A DNA stretch of 64,000 nucleotides from Haematococcus lacustris (taxonomy: Eukaryota; Chlorophyta; Chlorophyceae; Chlamydomonadales; Haematococcaceae), in NCBI GenBank assembly GCA_030144725.1, contig JASKMD010000002.1:5273362-5337361 (forward strand), written 5' to 3'. Positions 3,001 through 62,718 of the stretch are shown one piece after another. Numbering within the stretch: the first letter of the stretch is position 1; each line of letters begins with the position of its first letter. The translations under genes were made by a program, and so were the position numbers. The notes below the pieces were generated by a model, which was given only the letters and a program-made list of their open reading frames with translations, was not told the DNA's origin and did not search any database.

Positions 3001-4076
3001 CTGGTGTCAGCAGGGGGGTGGGAGGGGGGGGGCATCCCAGGGGGCCGAGGGGGGCCAGCCGGGGGCGCCTGTCTGTCTGGTCGTGTGTCTGNNNNNNNNN
3101 NNNNNNNNNNNNNNNNNNNNNNNNNNNNNNNNNNNNNNNNNNNNNNNNNNNNNNNNNNNNNNNNNNNNNNNNNNNNNNNNNNNNNNNNNNNNNNNNNNNN
3201 NNNNNNNNNNNNNNNNNNNNNNNNNNNNNNNNNNNNNNNNNNNNNNNNNNNNNNNNNNNNNNNNNNNNNNNNNNNNNNNNNNNNNNNNNNNNNNNNNNNN
3301 NNNNNNNNNNNNNNNNNNNNNNNNNNNNNNNNNNNNNNNNNNNNNNNNNNNNNNNNNNNNNNNNNNNNNNNNNNNNNNNNNNNNNNNNNNNNNNNNNNNN
3401 NNNNNNNNNNNNNNNNNNNNNNNNNNNNNNNNNNNNNNNNNNNNNNNNNNNNNNNNNNNNNNNNNNNNNNNNNNNNNNNNNNNNNNNNNNNNNNNNNNNN
3501 NNNNNNNNNNNNNNNNNNNNNNNNNNNNNNNNNNNNNNNNNNNNNNNNNNNNNNNNNNNNNNNNNNNNNNNNNNNNNNNNNNNNNNNNNNNGCAACAGCA
3601 GCCCCCCATACCCAGCCTCCCCACCCCAGGCCCACGGCTGCGCCTCCCCCCCCCCCTCCCTCTCCCCCCCCCCTGCAGACTCAATGACTCACCACCGCCT
3701 GCCCTACAGGACACCCAGCCAGTGGGCGACCCCCTCCCCTCCCCCTCTCCTCTCCCCTGCCCTCCCCCCTCCCCTCCTCCACCCTGCCCCCCCTCACCCC
3801 CCTTCACCCCCACTGCCCCTGGCCCCCGCCCCCCACCCCCCACCCCCTGCACCCCCTGCCTGGGCCCCCCCACCAGGCTCCTGGCAGCAGCGCTGCAGCC
3901 CGCCAGCGCCCTGCCCCCGCAGCCCACCTCCCCCCCCCCCCCGCCCTTCCCCCTACACGCTGCACGGGGCTGCGGGGGGTCTGCCCAGGGCGCTGCATCG
4001 ACCCTGACCAGGCCCCCTCACCCGCTGCCTCCGCCTGGCCGCCTCAGACGCCTCTGGTACCGCCAGCACCGCCAGC

Positions 4077-4109
<33 letters not shown>

Positions 4110-6235
4110 GGGGGGTCAGCAGCCGGCGGCGGCCTGCTGAACCCTGCCAGGTGCCTACCTCGGCCCCTGACCTGCCTGCTGCCCCCCCCCCTGACTCAGC
4201 CCAGCCAATGGAACACAGCTCCCAGCACACCCACATGGACCAGGGGGCCAGAGGGCAGGGCCAGGCGGCTGCCCCCCCCGCCCCCCCTGCCCCCCCTGTC
4301 CCCCCCGCCCCCCCCGCCTCCTCCCTGTACCTGCGCCTGGTGGACGACCTGCTGTTCGTGAGCACCAGCCTGCCCGCAGCGCACGCCCTGGTGCAGCGCC
4401 TGGGTCAGGGCTTCCCCTCGTGAGTGCGGGCAGGGGGGAGGGAAAGTTAAGGGAAGGGGGAGGGAGGGGAGAGGGGAGGGGCAAGGAAGAAGGGAGATGC
4501 CTCATGTACCTCATGTTCCAGTCAGCTGCCCCCCCTGACCCCTACTGGCCCCCCCCCCCTGTCTGGCTCTGCCTTGTTGTTCCTGCCGGGTGCAGACACG
4601 GCTGCAGCTGCAACCCAGGCAAGACGCAGACCAACTTCACCCTGACAGCGCCAACAGGGGGCCTCAGGGGGGGGCCAGCGCACCCTGCCCCTGCCCCCGG
4701 CCCCCCGGCCCCCCCGCACCCTGCTGCTGCCGCCCCCCCGCACCCGCCCTCTGATGGGGCGACCAACACAGCTGGGCCAGGGGCGGGTGGGGCAAGCCAG
4801 CCTCACCTGCAGGCGCAGCAGCAGGAGGGGCAGCAGGGGCAGCCCACGCAGGGCCCCCCCCCCTGCCGCCCCCTACAGTCGGCCCCTGTGGCGAGATGGC
4901 CAGGGCAACCCCTTCATCAGGTCAGCCGGCGGGAGAGGGGGGGGGCGGGCGGCAGGTTTTTGAGGGGGCGGCCAGGGGGACGAGGGGGGCAAGGGGGGCA
5001 GGGGTACGAAGGGGACGAGGGGGGCAAGGGGGGCAGGGAGATACTGTTTGCGATGGTGGTGGTGAGGGTGAGGGTGAGGTTTGTAGTCAGTGTCTGGCGG
5101 CTGAGGTTGCAGGTGGTGCGGCCTGCTGCTGAACGCCAAGAGCCTTGAGGTGCAGGCCGACTACACGCGCTATGTGGGCGCCCACCTGGCCACCAGCCTC
5201 ACAGTGCCCTTGACGGCCAGGCCAGGTGGGGGGGAGGGGGGGCGGCAGGGGTCAGGGAGCAGGGAGCTGGCAAGACTGGGGGGCTGCTGCCTGGCTGCAG
5301 GGAGGCAGCTGGCTCAGCGGCTGGCGCAGTCACTGCGGCCCAAGTGCCACCCGCTGCTGATCAACACAGCCCTCAACTCCCACCACACCGCCTGCCTCAA
5401 CGTGTACCAGGTGGGGGGCAGGGGAGGCAGGGGGCAGGGGGTGCGGGGGGCAGAGCAGGGCAGGGCAAGGCAGGGGCCCGGTGAGCTGTGTGCGCAGTTT
5501 CTGAAGTGCTGCTGGAAGCCTTTGGCCATGATGGTGTCTGCCATTACTGCGGTGCCTGCCATTGCTTGCAGCGCAGGCGTTTTTGGTGTCGGCGATGAAG
5601 TTGCATGGCTACTGGTCGTCTGTGACGCGGCGAGCTCGGGGCGCTGGAGTGGGGCGGGCGCTGCTGCGTCACGCGGCCAAGCCGCAAGGTTACCGGAGCT
5701 CCGCCTCAACCGCAGCGCCCGGGGCTGCCCACCGGCCTGCCGGTAAGGCCGCGAGGTTCCGGGTCGCGCGGCGATCCCAGCAGTCGGAGGGGAGGGAACC
5801 GTCGGCGCCGGGGCAGCGTCTCATCCTGTCGGCCATCCACAACGCGGTGGATTACATGTCCCGCTTGGCTCGTAGTCGTGCGGCAGCCGTGGTGCGCGCT
5901 CACCCGGAACAATTGGCGGGGCTTGCGGACCGCCCGCTGCCGCACGCCGTCGTGCGCTGGCTGGGCATCACGGCGTTTGAGCGAGTGCTTTCCCGCAAGC
6001 AAACCGGCTTTGGCGAAGTGCTACAGGTGTGTGCCAAGGCGCAGCGCGGGGCAGGCAGTAACACCAGGCACCTCCGCAACGGTCTTAACAGCAATCGCCC
6101 TTGTGTTGCGCTCCTCGCGCGCTGCAGCATTTACGCGAGGAGCTGCAGAGACCAGCTGCACGCCAGTGGCGGCACCGCCTTGCCGGAGTGGTTTCGCCAG
6201 AGCGCTCGTCGGCCTTCGACGGCATCATCTTCTAG
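1..6235 (+). CDS. TERT: Telomerase reverse transcriptase (5' partial, contains assembly gap)
   Basis: Catalytic subunit of telomerase, which copies the telomerase RNA template onto chromosome ends in the nucleus. Visible blocks in order: a TEN/GQ-like segment in the exon ending at 458 (GDQLLAHLLLHAALF, NYLQLSGRG); an exon 699-983; a CP-like motif (PRNLLLYSATFNKRPGLPA) ending near 2170; catalytic motif C, YLRLVDDLLFVS at 4328-4363, with the Asp pair typical of TERT; motif D (GCSCNPGKTQTNF) from 4596; motif E (WCGLLLNAKSLEVQADY) in exon 5113-5225; then C-terminal extension exons 5301-5410 (LRPKCHPLLINTALNSH), 5577-6026 and 6128-6235, ending LREELQRPAARQW...GIIF and TAG. The order and spacing match human and plant TERT. 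Motifs T, 1, 2 and A were not located and may lie in the 500-N gap; motif B' is uncertain (a GSAQGAASTL stretch near 3970). Long Pro/Gly/Ala-rich linkers make exon limits between 1000 and 4300 unreliable. The identity is firm because motifs C, D, E and the C-terminal extension agree. Confidence 0.9.
3092..3591. other. Assembly gap of exactly 500 N
   Basis: A run of exactly 500 unknown bases lies inside the TERT gene, in an extremely G/C-homopolymeric stretch. The round length suggests a default scaffold gap, so the true size is unknown. Continuous reading frames through it are artefacts. Confidence 0.99.
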
Positions 6236-6274
6236 TTCTACCGCAGCCGCTGGAGGCCGTTTGCCGCAGCATGC

Positions 6275-6386
6275 CCAGGCACAGACACCGTCAGAACAGG
6301 TTACATAGATCAAAGCTGTTGGACAACTCCCACCACAACAACTTTCATACTTGAAGAGAACCAGGCACAGACACCGTCAGAACAGG
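6275..6386. repeat. 26-bp direct repeat downstream of TERT
   Basis: Two identical 26-bp copies beginning CCAGGCACAGACACCGTC lie at 6275-6300 and 6361-6386, 86 bp apart, in the presumed TERT 3' untranslated region just after the TAG at 6233-6235. No coding potential is evident between them. Confidence 0.85.
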
Positions 6387-6554
6387 TGCCTCTACTGCCT
6401 GATATAGCAGCAACTCACACATATTAGACCCGGTGGTCCGGACCGCTGGACCGGTGCGTGATCCTAAGCATGCACTATTTCCAACAGCAGGCAGATTAGG
6501 TCGTCTTCCTGCTATTTCTGCTTGTTTTTGCGCAGCAGCCTTGTGAACAGGGTG

Positions 6555-6664
6555 CGGTTGAGTATACAGCACAACAAAACTTATTCAACACGGAACAACA
6601 TGTTGGGCTGCGGGTAATCTCACTCAGCTACTACAAACATGTATCGGTTGAGTATACAGCACAA
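6555..6664. repeat. 20-bp direct repeat downstream of TERT
   Basis: The 20-mer CGGTTGAGTATACAGCACAA occurs at 6555-6574 and 6645-6664, offset 90 bp. The spacing is close to that of the 26-bp pair just upstream, so this 400-bp stretch may be a decayed tandem array of about 86-90 bp units. I see no other feature between 6387 and 6690. Confidence 0.8.
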
Positions 6665-6690
6665 GCCCGTGGCAGGCACGAGTCACCTTG

Positions 6691-6837
6691 TCAGCGACTT
6701 GCAGCCTCTCCTGAAGCCTTCCTTTTGCGCTCTGCCTCGGTCAAGTCAGGTTGGGCTGCCTCGTCGCGGTCGAAGTCGGGGTCCTCCGGCACTGCTCTAG
6801 GCCCACCCACACCGGTTCGTCTCTTCTTCCTCGCCAT
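6691..6837 (-). CDS. Possible 48-aa basic protein, unrecognised
   Basis: A short reading frame on the minus strand starts MARKKRRTGVGGPRAVPED and ends KRKASGEAASR. It is rich in Lys, Arg, Glu and Asp, compositionally unlike the Pro/Gly shadow frames elsewhere. It lies between the TERT 3' end and the divergent PLAT gene start at 6973, so it could share that promoter region or be an exon of an element I do not recognise. No ribosome or splice signal decides the start. I do not recognise a family; it could be chance. Confidence 0.2.
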   Translation of the reverse strand: MARKKRRTGVGGPRAVPEDPDFDRDEAAQPDLTEAERKRKASGEAASR

Positions 6838-6972
6838 AAACAATAGAAACGCGAGGCAGCTACATGTACTAGGGATTTTCGTGTTGTGTGTGATAAAATG
6901 TGTGTGTCTACACATGCTTCCATGCTTAGATAGCTGCAATAGGATGAGAGCAACATCGCAGGTTGCGAAGTG

Positions 6973-9900
6973 ATGCTGGGCAGCGGTGCATACACGAACC
7001 CCAGGCCTCCCGTGACTCCGCCAGCTCATGCCGTGCGCCCACCTCTACGCACCTTTCGCGATGCGACTTGCAGAGCACGGCGAGAGAGGCACAGCGCGAG
7101 TGTGCCATCCCCGCAATTTGTTTCGGTGCATCCCACCAGCTTGATGCAATCACCGCGGTCAGCTGGGCTAGAGGTACGCAAGCACGATACGTACTAACAC
7201 GACTCACCATGACGCAAACCCTAACCGGGCTGACACCGTCGCCTGGGCCAACATGGGTTGCCTGGGAATCCCTGCAGCCCTACCAGCCCTGCAGCCGCAG
7301 TGCAAAGTCACTCTGGCTGCTATTGGCATCCCACAGCCACTGCCTAGGTGCCTAGTTCGACTCCTGGAGGGGAAAGGGAAGAAGAGAAGCAGGGATGGAG
7401 GAAGGAGGAAGGAGGGGGGAGGGCCGGGTGCCTCCAGCTGCCCCCCCACCACTGTCCCCTGGCGGTCCTGCCCTGCAGGTCCTGGATGACGGGCCTCAGG
7501 GGCAGAGTGCAGTGGGAGCCGGGGGGGCGGGGGCTGCGCTGACGCTGTACTGCTGCCGCTTCACCACGGGCCAGGGGCGCGGCTCCGGGCTGTCTGACCC
7601 CTGCAGCGCCGTCAACCTGTGCCTGATTGGCGCTGACGGCCGCGCCGTGCTGCACCGCCTACAGCCCTACAGCCAGCAGGAGGCCGGGGCCGGGCAGCAG
7701 GTGAGGAAGACGGGCTCCCTGCCCTTCCCTCTCCCCCCTTGATCCAGCAGGGTACTATGGACAGGAGGGTGGCAGCGGAAGGGGGGGGGGCAGCAGGGGG
7801 AGGGTGGCAGCGGGGGGGGGGGGGGCATCAGGGGGAGGGTGGCAGCAGCAGGGGGAGTGGCAGCAGGGGGAGGGTGGCAGCAGCAGGGGGAGGGCAGCAG
7901 CAGTGTGTGGGGGTTAAGTGGGACCTCATGGCTGCTGTGCTGCTGCAGGGCCAGCTAACTGCCTGCCCACCCTCCTGCCTGAGGCCTGCCCCCCTCACCC
8001 TGAACCAGCAGGCCAGCTGCTCACCCCCCCGCCGCTGCCTTGGCATGCAGATCAGCCAAGGCGCCTCCCCTCAGCCTCAAGGCCTGGGCGTGGACTTCAC
8101 ATCCAGCTGGGGCCCCCCCCCCTGCCTCCCCCCCTGACCCTGGCACCAGGTGCGGCCCCCCCCACCTTCCCTCCCCCCACCTCCCCTCCCGCGACCCCTG
8201 GTCCAGCAGCAGCCCAGGGAGCGGCTCTGCCTCCCTGAGGCCTCAGGGTCCAGGGGGGGAGCAGCAGGGGGGGGGGGGCAGCAGGGGGGGGGGGGCCAGA
8301 GGCCAGGGCCCGGCCCCGCAGGTGGTCAGGCCTCCAACCCTGGAGCTGTGCCCTGCAGCCCTGGTGCTGTGCGGCGCCGCTTTGAAACCGGAGCGGTGGA
8401 CGAGGTCAGCTTCCTGGCACCTGACCTGGGCCCGCTGGCAGCGCTGCTGGTGAGGCCAGGCGGGCAGCAAGGCGAGGGTGCAACATGACAGGCCAGTACA
8501 GACAGCCCAGGTCCCCCCCCACCAGCCTCCCCACGCCACCCCCCCTTGGTCACACTCCATGGCTGGGTAGTGCCAGGCAGGCAGGCAGGGCAGGTGTGCA
8601 TGCTGCAGCCCTCACCCCCCCGCGCCCCCCCCCCTGGCCCGTTGAGCCCAGCCCGCCCTTTCGCCTGCTGTTGCATTGCAGGTTGGTCCTGAGAGCGGCA
8701 GCTGGGCGCTGCAGGAGCTGCAGGTGGCTGCCTCGCCCTCAGGCCTCAATGCCAGGTCAGCCCCCTGGGGCTAAGGGGGGCAGGGGGGTTAGGGGGGCAG
8801 GGGGGGAGGGGAGAGGGAGAGGGAGTAGGGTAGGGTAGGGGTGTGAGGGGAATAGCAGTGGCGGGGAGGGGAGCCTGGGGGGTTCCTAGGCTGTGAGTGA
8901 GGTGTGACTGCGCTGCCGCAGGTTTGTGTGCCAGCGGCTTCTGGGCAGTGAGGCGGGTCAGGGGGCGGCCTACCTCACCCCAGTGCCCGCAGGGGCCGTG
9001 GTGTACGGCTCAGGAGGCAGCGCCCGCACGCTGTCACAGGTCAGGGGGGGCGGGCAAGGCAGGGCGGGGAGGGGCAGGGCCGGGAGGGGGTGTGGGAGGG
9101 CAGAGGCTGCTTGGGGGGAGGCAGGAGGGGGCAGAGGCATAGGAGGGGCAGGGGGGGGAAGCCAAGGAGTTGAGAAAGTCAGGTGGGTTGTGGGGGAAGT
9201 GTGGCGCGGCATTGGCCTCCACCAGCAGCAGTGCCTGGGCCCCTGGTGGTCTGGTCAGGCGGAGCTGGAGCCAACAGCCAGCCCTGAGGCCAGGCACAAC
9301 CCAGTGGAGCAGGGTGGCCCCCTAGCCGCTAGCCCTGCACACCCACTCTCACACCCCACCCTGCCGCCCCTCACCCCTTGCTCTCATGCCCCACCTTCAC
9401 CACGGCCTTTGCCGTCATCAGCAGCACCATGCACCAGGTGGGGGGGGCAGAGGGGAAGGAGGAGCAGCAGCCAAAGCTGCAAGGGAAGGCACAGCTGCTG
9501 CAAGGCAAAGCTGGTGGGAAGGCATCACCATCACTGCCATCACGTGGCTCTCGTGCCGCCCCCCCCCCCCTCTTGCCTGCTGTGCGCAGGCTCAGGCCAG
9601 CAGCTTGCGCGCCACAGGCCTATCCGCCTACCAGCAGCTGAAGGCGCAGCTGCTGACCGCCACCGCCCTGCTGACCCTGGGCGGTGCTGCGCTGTCTGGC
9701 CTGCTGGCCGGGCGGGATGCGGCGCTGCCCTTTGCACTGGGCGGGCTGGCTGGGTGTGTGTACCAGTGGCTGCTGCAGCAGGGGGTGGAGGGCCTGGTGG
9801 GGGGCGGGGACACGTTTGTGGTCAGCAGGGGGGGAGGTGGCACGGAGGGGGGGCAGGGGCTGCACTGGTCGCCCGCCCTCCAAACCCAGTCAGTGCTCGA

Positions 9901-19321: not shown

Positions 19322-22300
19322 ATGGAGTTCGACTTCGACAACATCGCTGGCAATGCGCACAACAGCCTGCAGCAACCTAACGAGCCCAGTGCGCTGGAAG
19401 CGATGGTCGCGAGGACGTCGGCCTGCTCCGCCATCGGCCTGACCTGCGATGCCGGCCCCGGCGTCCCCTGCTCCCCGCACTCCGGAAGGCCACAGTCCTT
19501 CTACGAGTACCCGCTGACCATGACAAATGCTGCGGAACAGCAGCACCAGCAGCTAATGCAGCAGCTGGCATTCGACGATTGGCCCGGCGACCTGACCGCG
19601 ACCTTGAACCTGACTGACCCATTGGTTGTCAAGGATGAGCCGGAGGAGGGCGGCGCGGCCTCTGACGCTGCAATGGCCGTCACCCACACTGGTCGCCTGC
19701 CGCAACATGGCTCAGCCCCACCCACAAGCAGCAACGCCCAGCAGCAGGAGGACGAATGCATCCTAAACAGCAGCAGTGACATGCCCCAGCCGCAGCAGTG
19801 GCTGCCAGGCGAGCAGGTGGACGCAGTGCAGCCTGGGGCCCAACCCGCCTCACCCTGCATCTCCTCACACCACTCGGGGGACAGCGGGTCAGCAGGTGCG
19901 CCACAGCCCCTGTGGCACCCCTTGTGGGCAGCCTGTGCACTGCACCCTGCCCTGCTGCTTAGCACTGCCTGCCCCCCCCACCACCACACACGCACATGAG
20001 TAAATGGCATCCAGGCACAAGCCATTGGCCCTCCCTGGCCTTGCCCTGATGCAGCTCAGCTTGGTATGCACCTTGGCCAGCCCCTGGCCTGGCCTGACTT
20101 GGGCATGACTGGGCCGACCGGGCAGTGCTGGCTTCGTCACTGTAAGACCTGCGCCTGCCTGGTGGTCCCCTGCCGTAGGCCGTACGGGCAGCCTCAAGCA
20201 CAGCCTGGACCTAGGCTGTGAAGGGGACGCCAAGCGCCGCCTCACCAGCACTCGTGCAGCAGTCTCCCTGGGCAGTATGGGCACGGCCTCAGATCCCCCC
20301 GGGCAACACACTCAAGCGCGCTGTGCCTCCCCCGCTCCTGGCCCCTCCCCCTTGGGCCGACACACCGTGCCAACCCTCCCCACCAACGCTGACCTGGGCC
20401 ACTGCCCCTCCAGCCCCCACCTGCACCACCTGGGCGCATGGCCGCTCCCCCGCCAGCAGCTTGTGGCGCTGCTCCGCTCAGCCGCCTCCCTAAGCCCGGG
20501 CCCGGGCTCCCCACGTGCCCCACACCCAGGCACGCCAGGCAGCCCCCTTGCCCCTGCCCTGCCTGGCCTCATCCCCACCCCCTCCCTCACACCCCCACCC
20601 CCCACCCCGGCTGCCCCTGGCAAGCTCTCCCGAATCTCCACCGCTTCAGCCTTTGCACCTCTCTCCCAGCTGGCCCCCTGCAGCCCCTTGGCCCGCTCCT
20701 CCGTCGCCTCCCCTAGCCTTGGTGCTGCCAGCAGTGCACCACACCTGCTGCTGCGGGGCAGCGGGTCGCTGCTGGGGCTGGGCAGCAGTGACGGGGAGAA
20801 GACGCCCAGCAGGCAGTCGCAGCAGACACGCCAGGAGGGCGGCACCTCCAAGTTTAGAGGGGTCACGAGGTGGGTGGTAGGGGCAGCAGCAGCAGCGGCA
20901 GCAGAAGGCATGGGAGGCACCAGGTCCCCAGGGGGTGCAGCTACACCCTGCAAGGGGCTTCACACCTCCCTGCCAGCCTGCGCACCTACCTTCCCATCTA
21001 CCCCAGCTTTCAATGCATGTCTGCACTATTGCTCAGCAGCCTCCTGCCTGGCTGCCATGGCCAGCCTTAGGCATCTCCAGCGCTCCTCCACCTCACCAAC
21101 TGTACATACTGCATGCCCCCAGCTACTGCCCAGCCGCTGCACTGGCTGAGAGCGTAGCGCACTGCCTTGCATGTGGCTGCCTGGTGCTGGAGGATGCGAC
21201 TGCCCGCATGACTTCAGGGCAGTCTCCGCTGCCCTCTGGCTGATGGCGCAGGCACCGCCACACACACAAGTTCGAGGCTCACTTGTGGGACAGCAGCGTG
21301 CCGCGCAAGGTCAAGGGCAAGGGCGGCCGCACGCGGGGCAAGCAGGTGTACCTAGGTGAGCTTCACCAGCCAGGCTGGCCCTGCAGCCAGCCAACGCTTC
21401 CAGCCTGCCAGCTAGCAGGGCCTGCCTGCCCACTGGCAGTCAGGCACCTCCAGAAATCCAGGAGCATCAACCTGGCTTCGGCACCCTGCCAACCGGGTAA
21501 TCCTCTTATGGACAAGGTGTAGTGCCTGCCCTGGCCCTCGCTGTGCTGCATGGCGGTAAAGCCCATTGCGGCGTGCTGTGCTGCTGTGCCGCACGCAGGT
21601 GGATTCCCAACAGAGGAGGAGGCAGCGCGGACCTATGACCGTGCGGCCCTGGCATTCTGGGGGGACTCCGCGCAGCTGAATGTGAGTGGGTGCGACCGAC
21701 CTGCCGCCGATGACACGATGACCACTGGAGCCGGGGCTGGCAGATGCACTGATGCGTGTTGCGCACTCACACCTCCGTTGACGTCCCGGCTGGTCTCGCA
21801 GTTTAACATTGAGGACTACGCAGCTGAGCGCGAGACCCTCTTCACATTGAGCCGCGAGGAGTGCGTGACCTTGTTGCGGCGCGGCAGCAGCGGTTTTGCT
21901 CGTGGCGCGTCCGCTTACCGCGGAGTGACCAAGCACCACCAACAGGGAAAGTGGGAGGCGCGAATCGGACGCGTACCAGGCCACAAGTACATGGTGAGTC
22001 GCTTGTGACCGTATAGCTTGGGCACTTCATCGCATCACTTCATCGCGTGCGTATGTCAAGAGAGAGAGGCTTACAATCAGGCGCTCCCAACATTCAAAAA
22101 ATGGCAGTAAACCGACCCCTGGTAGTAGGACGGCTGTAACTCTGCACTCGCTGCGCCAAAATTTATGCTAGCTGGCTCAGAATGTAGCCAACCCAGCCAG
22201 CTACCTTTCACCCATCCAGAATAATTATCCAGTTAGTAGGCCGTGCAGTGCAAAGCATCAAAGTTAGTAATTTGAATTTGAGCCGGTTCGGGGCATGCAG

Positions 22301-25300
22301 TCATCGCTGCGACCGCCCGCGCCGCTTAGGTTGCTCTATACGAGCATGCGCATCGGCAGAAGCAGTCGGATTGAAAAACGGTTGCGGGAATGTGGCACGA
22401 AGGCGGTTGGCAGGTGGTTGGGGGAGGTGGCCGGTACAGCCTTTGTTGCGCACTTTACAACCTGAGTTGGCGCTGGGGGGCTGTCTAACTAAGTCTCGTG
22501 GATCACCGCTTGCGCTTGGCAGCTGTCTTGGGCAGCCCCAACTCAGAAGGTGTGGTACGCTTGCGTAGCGTGAAGCCAGGAGCCGGCGCTGCTGCACCTG
22601 GCTCACTACCTTGAGCCGGAGCAGCCTGCCCTTGGGTGGCGATTGCAGCTAGAGCCAGCTGATACATGTGCCGTAAATCAGGTGATGCAATAGGCCCCTG
22701 AGGCGACGCAATGGGTGGTGCCAGCATCTGCCCCTCTAGGGCTGTGCCCCACGAGCTCCGGCCCTGCTGCTGGGGTGGCTGCTGTGGGGGGGCTGTTGGG
22801 GCAGGGGGGGCTGTGGAGCAAGGGATGGGTGGGCTGGGAGGGGGTGGGGCAGGGGGGGCCCGCAACACCATGGCGTCGTTCTGTGCCTTCTTCATCTGAG
22901 CTTTCAAGCCACTAGGGCAGCACTTAAACCCTGCCTTGGGTGAGGCGTTCAGCTTTTGCAGCTGTTGACGCTTCTTCTTGCTGGGCCTTTTACCCCCCAT
23001 GGTGGTGGCTAGGGCTAAAAGGGGGCGGGGGGGGTGGGGAGGGGGAGCAGGCAGCGAGCAAGGGATGGGTGGGCTGGGAGGGGGTGGGCTGGGAGGGGTG
23101 GGCCGGGAGGGGTTGGGCTGGGAGTGGGTGGGCTGGGAGGGGGTAGGCTGGGAGGGGTTGGGCTGGGAGCGAATGGGTTGGGAGGGATGGGCTCCTGAAA
23201 TGAGGTGGGCTCCTGCAATGATGGGTGGAGGGGGGGCGGGCATGGTGGGTTGTTGCATGCCGTGGCCTAGAACCTGCCTAGTGAACATGATGTAAGCTGT
23301 CAAACTGAACGAGGCCTGGGCTGTTTGTTGTGCGGTTTGTTTCACTAGATGCGCCAATGGGTAAAGAAAAAACATTTCGTAGCCATTTTCTTGTGGGTGC
23401 AGCGGGTGCAACACAGTGGAGGACACAGTGGAGAAGGGGGGGGTATAAGCCGGTGATACCTTCGGCGGAAGCGAGTACGATTATATGTTTCATTCACCCC
23501 GTCTAGGCGCCCTGCACGCCCGGCAGGCATCGCGATGGGTGTTGGCCGGACATTCCATTTGTGAAGAACCAGCTCACTACGCTAGGTAGATGGGGCCACA
23601 GCGATGCGGCTCACCGTGCCAAGGAGACCCGTCTCGCCGCTGTGAATTGTTCGCGGGCACATGTGGCAGTACGCGAGCAAAGACTCCAATGGCTAGCGCT
23701 GATGGTCAGATTACGCGGACTAGACCGCGGCTGCCAATGTGACAAACGCTATTGAAAACGATGCGGTATTCAGAGAGTAGTCGCATGAACATTACTAACC
23801 CCATGTTGGGGCGGCCTGACTTACAACAGATCATTGCTGCCTTCTGCCATCACCGTAGTACTTGGGCACATTTGCTCTGGAGCGCGAGGCGGCGGTCGCG
23901 TACGATCACGCAGCCTTGGAATTCCGTGAGGACGATAAGTCTGCGCCAATTACAAACTTCCCGGCCAATAAATATTTTGACGAGGACGGAAATCTGCTGC
24001 CATTGGAGCAGGTGAGAGAGGTCACTGTCCTGCCAGGCTTGGCCAAGCTCCATCACTCCAGCTTCCCTTGGTCGCAGCAACTGAATGTCTGGCTAGGTAG
24101 CTGCTATTGCCTGTCCAGCCCGCCTAGCTGCTGTCACCCGTCCTGCCCGCTCAACCTGTTGTTAGCTGTTCTTCTCCGCAGCTGCTCATTATGTGCCCCC
24201 GCTGGGCGGAGTCTCCGCTGGCGGAGCCTGCCAGTCGGCCCAGCGCCTCGGGAAACAGCGACAACTCACCTAGCCGATCAGCCAAGGCGACGGAGTCGCT
24301 GCATGCCCACACGAAACCCATGCCCGAGACACCCGGAGCAAGCCGCGCTTCAGTAGCAGGCAGTTACACCCCCGCGGCCTCGGCCCTCCTGCCGGGCACG
24401 CTCGTCGGCGCCCGTTCCCTTGGGGCCGCGTTGGCCAGCGCTGCCTGGATGCTGCCCAATGCTCAGCTTAATGCCACGAGCTCCGCCCAGCAGTCGGCTC
24501 CCAGTGCGCGCCCTCGCCCACCCAGCGGCCCGCTGCTAGTCGACGCGACCGCCCCGGCTGTCACGTCGGGGCCTGGCTGCGTGGTGATACAGGAAGTGGA
24601 GGCCGCTCAGCCCGCCAAGCCCGCAGGCCGGCCACGAGGGCGCCCCCGAAAGGACACCGCCAAGTGTGACACGCCCACCAGCGCCCGCAGCTCCGCTAAG
24701 TCGAGGCAGCACGCTTCACAGCGGGCAGTAGCGACGCGCAGCCAGCAGCATATGGCCCCAGCAGCGGGCCTGATGATGCAGGTGGGCCTTTCACCTCTTC
24801 CCTAAGCCATGCAAGGCCTCACTCGGCCCTGGGTCATGGCTCGTGCCCCTGGCTGTGTATACATCCATGGCCGTCAAACCATAACCCCATGACCCATGCC
24901 CTGGCCTGCTTCCCTCCCTGACCCCTGCTCCTCACCGGCCCTTTTGGCTCAGGCCTGCTCCAGTCCTTATTTGCCCCGCAGGTGCAGCAGGGCATGATGC
25001 TGCACAGCCCTGGGAAGCCAGGCATGTGGGACAGTCCTTCACCCTGGCCGCTGCCCCTACCCCTGGACCTCCTGCCTGGAGGGCTGCACCCCCTTAGCCT
25101 GCAGCTCCCAGAGGCACCCCCCCTCAGCTGGCCCCTGCTGCCGCCCCCCGGCTGTGTTGCCCATGCGGCGGTTACCGTCACCACCACTGCCCCCTTCGAG
25201 CTTGGGAGCTTGATGCCAGGCATGCCGCACCCCTCCGCCCTGGCCCCCGCCACTGGCCAAGCTGCTGACGCTCCCTTCTCACTCGAAGGGATGGAGCTGG

Positions 25301-32080: not shown

Positions 32081-32087
32081 TCTAAAC

Positions 32088-34078
32088 TCTGGAGTCCCCA
32101 ACATGGGGTTGGTAATCTTCATGCAAATACTCACTCTATACTGCACCGTTTTCGATAGCGTTTGTCACATTGGCACCGGCGAATTACTACGCGTCTACTG
32201 GCAAGCGGCGCGTTAATCCTTGCATCAGAGTCCGTGCCGGCGCAAGCGAGCACGGACACACCTCAGCTGCTCACAACCGATTGTTCTAGTGGTATGTAGC
32301 GGCATCAGTGATAGAACTGCGCTTGCTATCGAGCCAGAAGTACAATCAATGTTTAGCCCGCCAGGCTCACTCCGCAAGCCTTTCATTGGTGCAGGCGGTG
32401 TCGGAGGACCGTCGTTGGGCAAGTTGACACTCGACATTGCTGCGAGGTGCGATTGGAAAGAGGTCTCTCTAGCCAGCCACACAGAAAAAGGGACCCCCTT
32501 GCACAAGTCGGCATGTTGTGAGCTGACCACTATGACTTTCCAGACTTTCGAGTGTCAACATTGTTCCTAACTCAACGACACTGCTGTTGGAGAAGAAAGC
32601 ACGTCATTTCATTGAGTAGGCTTGCGGGAACATACTTTGGCATGACCTAACTTTGCCTTGCAGTGCTGACTAGCCCAACCGGACCACCCCCTGGCAGCCC
32701 CACCCCCTCCCAGCCCCAGCCCCGCCCCTCCCACCCCCTCCCACCCCCTCCTACCCCCTCCCAGCCCCAGCCCCGCCCCTCCCACCCCCTCCCACCCCCA
32801 GCCCCACCCCTCCCACCCCCTCCCACCCCCTCCCAGCCCCAGCCCCGCCCTCCCACCCCCTCCCACCCCCAGCCCCACCCCTCCCACCCCTTCTGCTGCA
32901 CCCTCCTGCTGCTGCACCCCCCTGGCAGCAGCACCCCCCTGGCAGCACATGGGAGAAGCATAAAAAGCAGATCTGTGCCATGGCCGACATGCAAGCGTTG
33001 AGTGAGCAGGACCAGCAACAACTGCAAGTGCATCTGGAGGTGTATTACCTTGCCTGCCCAATCTCCAATGCCCCTGTGGAGTCCCTGCTGCAGCTACTCA
33101 AGCATGGGACGGGCATGTTCATGGAGCTGCCAGCTCTGCTTGAGCTCATGTCCATGCGTACCCACATCGATGCCATTGACGGCGTGGACGTGCTTGACTT
33201 TGCACAGCGGCTGCCAGAGCTACGCAAGGAAGTGCGGCGTGAGGAGGCAGCAGCAGCTATGGCCCGACGGATAGCAAAGGCGGAGATGAAAGCAGCAGCA
33301 GCAACTCATAGAGTGGGACAGGTGGTGGTTGATGTGGGGGACCATGAGGGGCAGCATAGACTGTCTGCAGCATATGCTCTGACCTATGATGGGCGCGACT
33401 ACAGGCAGCTGGTGCTAATGCCGCCCCTGACCTGCCCCCCCCTCCTGCTGCACCCCCCTGGCAGCAGCAGGCAGCTGGTGCTGGTGCTGCCCCTGGGCTG
33501 CCCACCCCTCCAGCTGAGCAGCAGGGGGTCAGGGCGGAGCTGGACACAAGCTCGACACGCAAGCGGAGGGCGGGCGGGAGGGATCGGACCCAACATGTCG
33601 AGCAAGGTAACGTAGCAATGGCCTACACACCTTGAGTGGCCTTACTGAGTGGCCAGGTAGTAGGTACTACTCACGAAGCGGTCAAGCAATGCAGCAGCCT
33701 TGTATACTTCCGAGCATGGGTGGAGGGGCGTCGTTACTTCGGTTTGGCGTGCCATGTGCATTGTTTTGACTGCGGCGACTGTCCCTGACTGTTTGCAGAG
33801 GCTACTGGGCCACGTCGGTCGCGGCGGTCGGTCGCGGCGAGGCCCGCATGAGCAAAACTGGCATGAGTTTGAATGTCAAGATTTGAGCCGCCATAACACT
33901 CAGCACACTGCACAATATTTAATGTTACAAGCTGCACCGCATAGCTGACAGAGTCCTCTATCCAGGGATGTGCGAAACATAAATAGAAACCACGTGGCTG
34001 AGACGCGGCGTCGTTTTGATTACCAGGGGTCGGCTTCCGATCATTTCCAGCCATTTTTTGAAAGTTGGGGTCGCCTGA
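32088..34078 (+). mobile_element. DNA transposon copy B (7-bp target duplication TCTAAAC)
   Basis: The element starts TCTGGAGTCCCCAACATGGG and ends AAAGTTGGGGTCGCCTGA. It is flanked by perfect 7-bp duplications TCTAAAC at 32081-32087 and 34079-34085. Its outer about 90 bp on the left and about 100 bp on the right match copy A in inverted orientation (for example GTTTGTCACATTGGCACCGG and TACCAGGGGTCGGCTTCCGA). The interior differs: a CCCCTCCCACCCC minisatellite (32690-32890) followed by a distinct ORF. Length is 1991 bp. No transposase is recognised. Confidence 0.85.
32980..33615 (+). CDS. ORF inside transposon copy B, unrecognised
   Basis: An open frame of 211 codons beginning MADMQALSEQDQQQLQVHLE. 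It continues with LPALLELMSMRTHIDAIDGV, DFAQRLPELRKEVRREEAAA and AMARRIAKAEMKAAAATHR, predicted mostly helical with a heptad-like Ala/Glu/Arg stretch that could form a coiled coil. The composition is unlike shadow frames and codon use looks coding. After about residue 130 it becomes low-complexity, and the frame may shift into a second frame ending with STRKRRAGGRDRTQHVEQG. No catalytic motif is visible and I know no family. It may be the cargo of the element. Confidence 0.4.
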   Translation: MADMQALSEQDQQQLQVHLEVYYLACPISNAPVESLLQLLKHGTGMFMELPALLELMSMRTHIDAIDGVDVLDFAQRLPELRKEVRREEAAAAMARRIAKAEMKAAAATHRVGQVVVDVGDHEGQHRLSAAYALTYDGRDYRQLVLMPPLTCPPLLLHPPGSSRQLVLVLPLGCPPLQLSSRGSGRSWTQARHASGGRAGGIGPNMSSKVT

Positions 34079-34350
34079 TCTAAACCCATGCCTTGTTTAT
34101 GCACCTGCTCTCACATGCCCCTCCTTAAGTTTTCTGCAGCCCGCTTGAGGTTCCGCACGAACATGTCCCCTGTGCTGACCCTTCCCTTTACCCCATCATC
34201 TTCATCATCATTTCCTGCCATGCCCCGACGTGGATCAGGCAGCTAAGACATAGCGGCAAACGTCCCAAGCAGTTGTCAAGCACACCCTACACAACACATG
34301 ACCTACATGCCATGGGTACATCCAGCAAACTGTAGACTCCACTGTCCAAT

Positions 34351-61914: not shown

Positions 61915-62600
61915 CCACATCCCAGCACTGCCCCACCCCTTCCCAGCCTTGCGTTGCCCCTCCCCTCCCTGCCCAGCCCTGCCCCACCCCCTCCCAGCCC
62001 TGCCCCACCCCCTCCCAGCCTTGCGTTGCCCCTCCCCTCCCTGCCCAGCCCTGCCCCACCCCCTCCCAGCCCTGCCCCACCCCCTCTCAGCCTTGCGTTG
62101 CCCCTCCCCTCCCTGCCCAGCCCTGCCCCACCCCCTCCCAGCCCTGCCCCACCCCCTCTCAGCCTTGCATTGCCCCTCCCCTCCCTGCCCAGCCATGCCC
62201 CACCCCCTCCCAGCCATGCCCCACCCCCTCCCAGCCTTGCGTTGCCCCTCCCCTCCCTGCCCAGCCCTGCCCCACCCCCTCCCAGCCCTGCCCCACCCCC
62301 TCCCAGCCCTGCCCCACCCCCTCCCAGCCTTGCGTTGCCCCTCCCCTCCCTGCCCAGCCCTGCCCCACCCCCTCCCAGCCTTGCGTTGCCCCTCCCCTCC
62401 CTGCCCAGCCCTGCCCCACCCCCTCCCATCCCTGCCCCACCTCCTCCCAGCCTTGCGTTGCCCCTCCCCTCCCTGCCCAGCCCTGCCCCACCACCTCCTG
62501 CCCAGACCTGCCCCACCCCCTCCCAGCCCTGCCCCACCCCCTCCCAGCCCTGCCCCACCCCCTCCCAGCCCTGCCCCACCTCCTCCCAGCCTTGCGTTGC
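61915..62600. repeat. Higher-order minisatellite, 72-bp unit of 21+21+30
   Basis: A 30-bp module starting CCTTGCGTTGCCCCTCCCCT begins at 61947, 62019, 62091, 62163, 62235, 62328, 62379 and 62451. The steps are 72, 72, 72, 72, 93, 51 and 72 bp. The steps are sums of the 30-bp module and one, two or three copies of a 21-bp module (CCCTGCCCCACCCCCTCCCAG). Long frames through it on both strands are artefacts. Confidence 0.97.
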
Positions 62601-62610
62601 CCCTCCCCTC

Positions 62611-62718
62611 CCTGCCCTGCCCTGCCCTGCCCTGCCCTGTTCTGCCCTGCCCTGCCCTGCCCTGCCCTGCCCTGCCCTGCCCTGCCTTGCCCTGCCCTGC
62701 CCTGCCCTGCCCTGCCTG
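62611..62718. repeat. (CCCTG)n pentanucleotide array
   Basis: About 21 CCCTG units with one CTGTT and one CTTGC variant directly follow the minisatellite. Confidence 0.95.

Follow-up and report, generated by a model that had tools for sequence, protein, structure and literature searches.

A high-copy family of DNA transposons with 7-bp target-site duplications and a putative hAT-like transposase in Haematococcus lacustris

In a 64,000-nucleotide stretch of the Haematococcus lacustris genome (contig JASKMD010000002.1, positions 5,273,362 to 5,337,361 of the forward strand; hereafter the window, to which all unprefixed coordinates refer), a 1743-bp DNA transposon, copy A, lies within an intron of an AP2 gene. 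Its borders are exact, its ends are inverted and flanked by a 7-bp target-site duplication, an element-free version of its insertion site is present in the assembly, and longer copies with like ends carry open genes. We consider it likely that copy A is an internally deleted member of a high-copy cut-and-paste family served by a hAT-like transposase, that its deletion originated in gap repair and that its insertion into the AP2 gene is tolerated. The parts of copy A and of its host intron are as follows.

21994..23858, plus strand: AP2 gene intron containing copy A, with the AP2 domain lying across the exon junction
22070..22076: left copy of the target-site duplication CTTACAA, single in the element-free version
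22077..23819, coding strand minus: copy A, a non-autonomous, internally deleted A-type element of 1743 bp, with inverted ends, a 7-bp duplication and an element-free site
22077..22093, plus strand: left terminal inverted repeat, TCAGGCGCTCCCAACAT, on the coding 3' side
22503..23000, minus strand: putative transposase gene remnant of 165 codons
22818..22858, minus strand: deletion junction
23020..23190: G-rich minisatellite 5' of the remnant gene, limits approximate, the candidate source of filler
23803..23819, minus strand: right terminal inverted repeat, on the coding 5' side
23820..23826: right copy of the duplication CTTACAA

The two terminal inverted repeats (TIRs) of copy A are 17 bp long and, compared by eye, identical at 14 of 17 positions. 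When the flanks of the element were joined without the insert and used as a query, they returned a one-piece match at C89:271598-272072 (96% identity), and the window's own AP2 locus matched the same query in two pieces. The C89 stretch has one CTTACAA at the site and no element, and 912 of 950 aligned columns are identical to the joined flanks. It represents either the other haplotype, H. lacustris having been reported as diploid (PMC7617258), or a paralogue, and in both cases it fixes the borders of copy A and its 7-bp duplication. Without the element and one duplication, the AP2 intron measures 115 bp, and when the joined exons are translated an AP2 domain (PF00847, E 8.9e-9) runs across their junction. 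The interrupted repeat looks like AP2 repeat 2, judging by the apparent end of a first repeat in the upstream open reading frame (ORF). An earlier reading made from the letters of the window alone (the sequence-only reading) had placed copy A, with these termini, borders and CTTACAA duplication, inside an AP2 intron; the element-free version, the duplications of other copies and the PF00847 match across the junction all agree with it.

Copy A belongs to a high-copy family. In the 307.9-Mb genome (597 contigs), the whole of copy A gave at least 92 matches among the best 40 of 3995 candidates scored, and a 23-bp pattern of the A-type left end, allowing up to two mismatches, was found 672 times (329 + 343), compared with 0 matches for the reversed pattern used as a control. 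Of the 21 copies in which both ends could be used, 19 are flanked by perfect 7-bp duplications, and these 19 comprise 14 A-type, 4 B-type and 1 C-type copies; the two misses, L009 (4/7) and L010 (6/7), are retained in the count. Cross-pairing the ends of different copies, using 18 duplications, yielded no 7/7 agreement in 306 combinations. In the copies compared, similarity ends at the termini and the flanks are unrelated from copy to copy; the exceptions are copies that adjoin or are nested in one another and a single weak match of 53 columns. The sequence-only reading had proposed a family of DNA transposons that duplicate exactly 7 bp, to be checked in the flanks of further copies and against homology running past the termini, and on both counts the genome copies uphold the proposal.

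These 21 copies were drawn from 20 loci, the window and later stretches, with L029 and L032 added later; the 20 loci were picked among the best 40 of the 3995 candidates and are biased to A-like copies, chiefly by the left end. The initial table held 22 end pairs, 16 of them with 7/7. Left out of the 21 were L014 and L017 (2/7 each), in which TIR sequence is lost at one end, the L010 pairing 4235-7018 (5/7), which involves another left end that has no partner, and the L025 pairing 3139-5599 (4/7), which was superseded by the nested reading 3139-7180. Single-ended copies occur at L013 (two copies), L015 and L019 (its A copy), and some copy borders were set by hand where BLAST ended early. In the small sample of 18 duplications, base 1 tends to be C or G, base 5 to be C and base 7 to be G, and the 7-mer GGGTGAC is common to L020 and L032 if read in opposite orientations of the element; no common insertion target was seen among the flanks of 20 copies. 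Mean identity across 15 A-type copies is 98.4% in the first 700 bp, a figure biased by how the copies were selected, 95.3% in the last 160 bp and 88.7% between 600 and 160 bp from the other end.

Two near-full-length A-type copies stand head to head as an inverted pair at positions 1085-9562 of L013 (C49:5665500-5675499). They are 99.65% identical over 2857 bp and both are without the coding 5' end; the arrangement is either a rearrangement or an assembly artefact.

The window holds a second member of the family, copy B, with the following parts.

32081..32087: low-side duplication of copy B, TCTAAAC
32088..34078, coding strand plus: copy B, a non-autonomous B-type element of 1991 bp, in opposite orientation to copy A
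32980..33402, plus strand: putative B-type transposase gene remnant with the E-motif segment, both D motifs deleted
34079..34085: high-side duplication of copy B, TCTAAAC

Read in the orientation of copy A, the duplication of copy B is GTTTAGA (TCTAAAC on the plus strand). The ends of A and B align over 99 bp at 82.8% identity on one side and over 58 columns at 74.1% on the other, so that both ends of copy A are indeed homologous to copy B, as had been claimed. The E codon of the copy B remnant was counted to 33079-33081. Among the 18 protein matches to the copy B ORF, 17 are named Haematococcus lacustris. P0008, whose record assigns it to Bosea sp. and whose contig measures 1173 bp, aligns with 34% of the B-type ORF used as query at 96% identity, and is probably algal DNA within a bacterial assembly.

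The family also includes long copies with open transposase genes. A full B-type copy (C143:14690577-14695819; 5243 bp) starts with TCAGG, ends with CTGA and has ATGAGGC on both sides. Within this copy, a single run of 1330 codons is free of stops and includes all five motifs described below, and a repeat-rich stretch shows intron-like borders, GTAAGG ... GCATGCAG; omission of the latter stretch reproduces the join present in P0041. A full C-type copy (C118:598534-602855; 4322 bp) has perfect 15-bp inverted ends, GGGTGAC on both sides and stop-free stretches of 352 and 802 codons, again with all five motifs. By their anatomy, the 5243-bp and 4322-bp copies are candidates for self-mobilising elements. 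The sequence-only reading had suggested searching for a long copy that encodes a transposase and had noted that no DDE transposase was visible; these two copies answer the search, and the remark holds for copy A itself but fails for the family, whose longer relatives carry open transposase genes.

Compared with these and other longer copies, A and B are by sequence deletion derivatives. Relative to the full B-type copy, the deletion in copy B extends from the minisatellite to a site preceding the E motif; part of the C-terminal repeats is missing as well. Copy A, aligned with a 3595-bp copy at L012, jumps from L012 position 1036 to 2853, and in its remnant gene the N-terminus is fused in frame with the C-terminal tail, the catalytic part being deleted. 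At the junction, 31 bp (22818-22848) exactly duplicate the upstream minisatellite of copy A at 23058-23088. Such filler is the expected product of abortive gap repair in which the template is switched, and the match suggests that the deletion in copy A may have arisen in this way.

To characterize the transposase, we compared the remnants with longer proteins. Both remnants match portions of longer proteins, that of A with its N-terminus and C-terminal tail and that of B with a segment late in the middle of the protein; P0016 is the only one of these proteins to match both the A N-terminus and the B segment. Searches with longer protein queries gave at least 56 and at least 52 matches, all from H. 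lacustris (56/56 and 52/52), with 7994 and 7997 candidates scored, namely those sharing most words. Transposases of types A, B and C are about 45-60% identical to one another. Five motifs occur in the order FDGC, ADSAxVNMG, QPCYSHG, CDTRWASY and SNAPVESLL (D, D, CxxH, RW, E), and all five are present in 4 of 101 proteins, P0025 and P0038 (type A), P0042 (type B) and P0060 (type C). In P0042 the residues are D231 and D319, followed by CxxH, RW and E663. P0081 had passed a loose D1-to-E filter, yet it does not have all five motifs and was rejected as a complete transposase. Most of the other transposase models are fragments or fusions.

Three further observations concern these proteins and their relatives. 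L020:759-1610 holds a fourth transposase relative, about 31% identical, with the motif SNAHVESALQHAKHG. In P0035, P0019 and P0051, transposase pieces are fused to host-like domains (endoplasmic reticulum lumen receptor, SAP and FKBP), the fusion point of P0035 being the end of transposase exon 1; these fusions reflect either exonisation or annotation error. P0052 has a PF05699 match within a canonical hAT part attached to the family N-terminus, and P0073 has a weak PF14372 match likewise within a canonical hAT part, from which it follows that ordinary hAT elements are also present in the genome.

The fold of the transposase was approached through low-confidence structure models. The predicted strand order is compatible with an RNase-H-like DDE domain; a model of P0042, with a pLDDT of 38.8, was set aside for its low quality. 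Foldseek, run with the low-confidence P0038 model, returned Hermes 8sjd_B as the top match (E 5.4e-4, probability 1.00), the only match at E <= 0.001, and Hermes 2bw3_A as the second (E 0.011), with TM values of 0.28-0.30 for the Hermes matches. In VIA-align, generic RNase-H proteins score like Hermes. A sequence profile search of the PDB gave 4 rows at E <= 10, with no transposase among them, and scans of viral and genome contig collections with the catalytic alignment gave 18 + 34 pattern stretches, in which no relative was confirmed.

We read the family as a hAT-like group that makes 7-bp rather than 8-bp duplications. hAT elements are described as having 8-bp duplications, TIRs of 10-25 bp and a length of 2.5-5 kb (PMC3942097). 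The TIRs of copy A (17 bp) and of the C-type copy (15 bp) and the length of the latter (4322 bp) fall within these ranges, and the 5243-bp copy slightly exceeds 5 kb. As in Hermes, BuT2 and other hAT elements, short TIRs are combined with full copies (4.3 and 5.2 kb) and deleted derivatives that keep their ends, and the DDE-like motifs include CxxH. The family departs from hAT elements in several respects: the duplications are of 7 bp, not the usual 8 bp; hmmscan finds no hATC domain (PF05699) in P0025, P0038, P0042 or P0060; and Pfam detects no BED zinc finger at the N-terminus of the complete models, for which a helical N-terminus is predicted at low confidence. Some hAT families in Repbase are said to make 7-bp duplications too (PMC4455052). 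Because the 8-bp duplication, hATC and BED are all missing, we do not claim hAT membership.

The strongest competitor, which we nonetheless judge unlikely, is a separate eukaryotic DDE superfamily that resembles hAT and P in no more than the RNase-H fold, the CxxH motif and a long insert. It is favored by the duplication length, by the generic RNase-H proteins that score like Hermes in VIA-align, by the restriction of all listed protein matches to H. lacustris and by Pfam, of which no transposase domain is matched by hmmscan in the four complete models. Pfam scans of the family's own part, one of which covered 35 proteins with 25 of 76 families listed, gave just weak coiled-coil and chance matches. 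Against it stand the first and second places of Hermes in Foldseek and the motif order of P0042, whose spacing resembles that of hAT transposases.

Much less probable is a place within the P superfamily, as a divergent lineage. Duplications of 7-8 bp are expected in this superfamily, and its member Galileo makes 7-bp duplications (PMC4168063), the length found here. A C/DxxH motif is also said to be common to hAT, Kolobok, P and MuDR (PMC3706591). However, a THAP domain has no Pfam match in the tables covering the complete models, the 17-bp TIRs are short compared with the long TIRs of Galileo, the target consensus is another one, and no P-element structure is among the best 50 matches listed for each structure comparison, a depth at which one could still be missed.

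Dada elements, hinted at in the sequence-only reading, share the 6-7 bp duplication range and a DDE transposase with a DxxH-type motif (PMC3706591), but an assignment to them is highly improbable. Dada elements are described as being without TIRs and located in small nuclear RNA (snRNA) or transfer RNA (tRNA) genes (PMC3706591), whereas the present family has clear TIRs and flanks that differ between copies, and on these two grounds we rule Dada out; Pfam also detects no zinc fingers. Seventeen loci searched with ARAGORN contained no tRNA gene, and 13 loci searched with Rfam contained a single match, a U5 snRNA (RF00020, 52.7 bits) at L018:3587-3697, 229 bp from the A-type copy at 3926 and not at its border. 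Neither result supports a Dada-like target, although both searches could miss small-RNA genes that an element has split.

Among green-algal DNA transposons, Zisupton and Kyakuja of the Kyakuja-Dileera-Zisupton (KDZ) group have been reported in Chlamydomonas and relatives (PMC8226300). KDZ membership was rejected, as PF18758 has no match in P0025, P0038, P0042 or P0060; P0096 alone has it, at 253-360, outside the family's own part. That a longer repeat produced the termini and the duplication by chance is next to impossible in view of the element-free version, the 19 of 21 perfect duplications and the 672 matches against none for the reversed control.

In the hAT-like reading, the gene would encode a DDE transposase with an RNase-H-like fold and a long helical insert, which would bind the TCAGG...CCCAACA ends whether a copy is full-length or deleted, cut at both ends and join the element to its target through cuts 7 bp apart. 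Copy A may then derive from a longer copy whose excision left a gap that was only partly refilled by copying, the template having been switched to the minisatellite of the element itself. Within the AP2 intron the insertion would be tolerated because predicted splicing removes the element.

Two of the 21 copies lie inside the terminal repeat of another member, the L012 copy (duplication CCGCCTG) and the inner L025 copy (GTTGGGG), and on C476 head-to-tail neighbours are 7 bp and 1 bp apart. By a rough hand estimate, as many as 4000 ends, each 16 bp long, would still occupy about 0.02% of the 307.9-Mb genome, and two nested copies in 21 are therefore far above a uniform expectation, which hints that the family prefers to insert into its own ends. 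More speculatively, A, B and C may form an undescribed superfamily-level group of eukaryotic DDE transposons, found only in Haematococcus so far, that makes 7-bp duplications and tends toward self-end insertion, a proposal we regard as doubtful. If it were true, self-end insertion would build the clusters of tandem and nested repeats that characterize the genome. Short repeats in this genome are described as arranged in tandem and in complex patterns (PMC7617258).

Repeats or transposable elements have been estimated at 47.3% (PMC7617258) and 50.8% (PMC10400597) of the H. lacustris genome, and the consulted portions of both sources name no such family. Nor did we find it described in the Haematococcus literature searched, Repbase not being among the sources. 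Our results suggest that a hAT-like transposase can escape Pfam in an algal lineage and that H. lacustris gene models contain many transposon pieces (at least 56). H. lacustris is an alga with few genetic tools, and the family could serve as a tagging tool if activity were shown. Elsewhere in the window, at 61928-62630, there are tandem G-rich repeats similar to the minisatellite of copy A.

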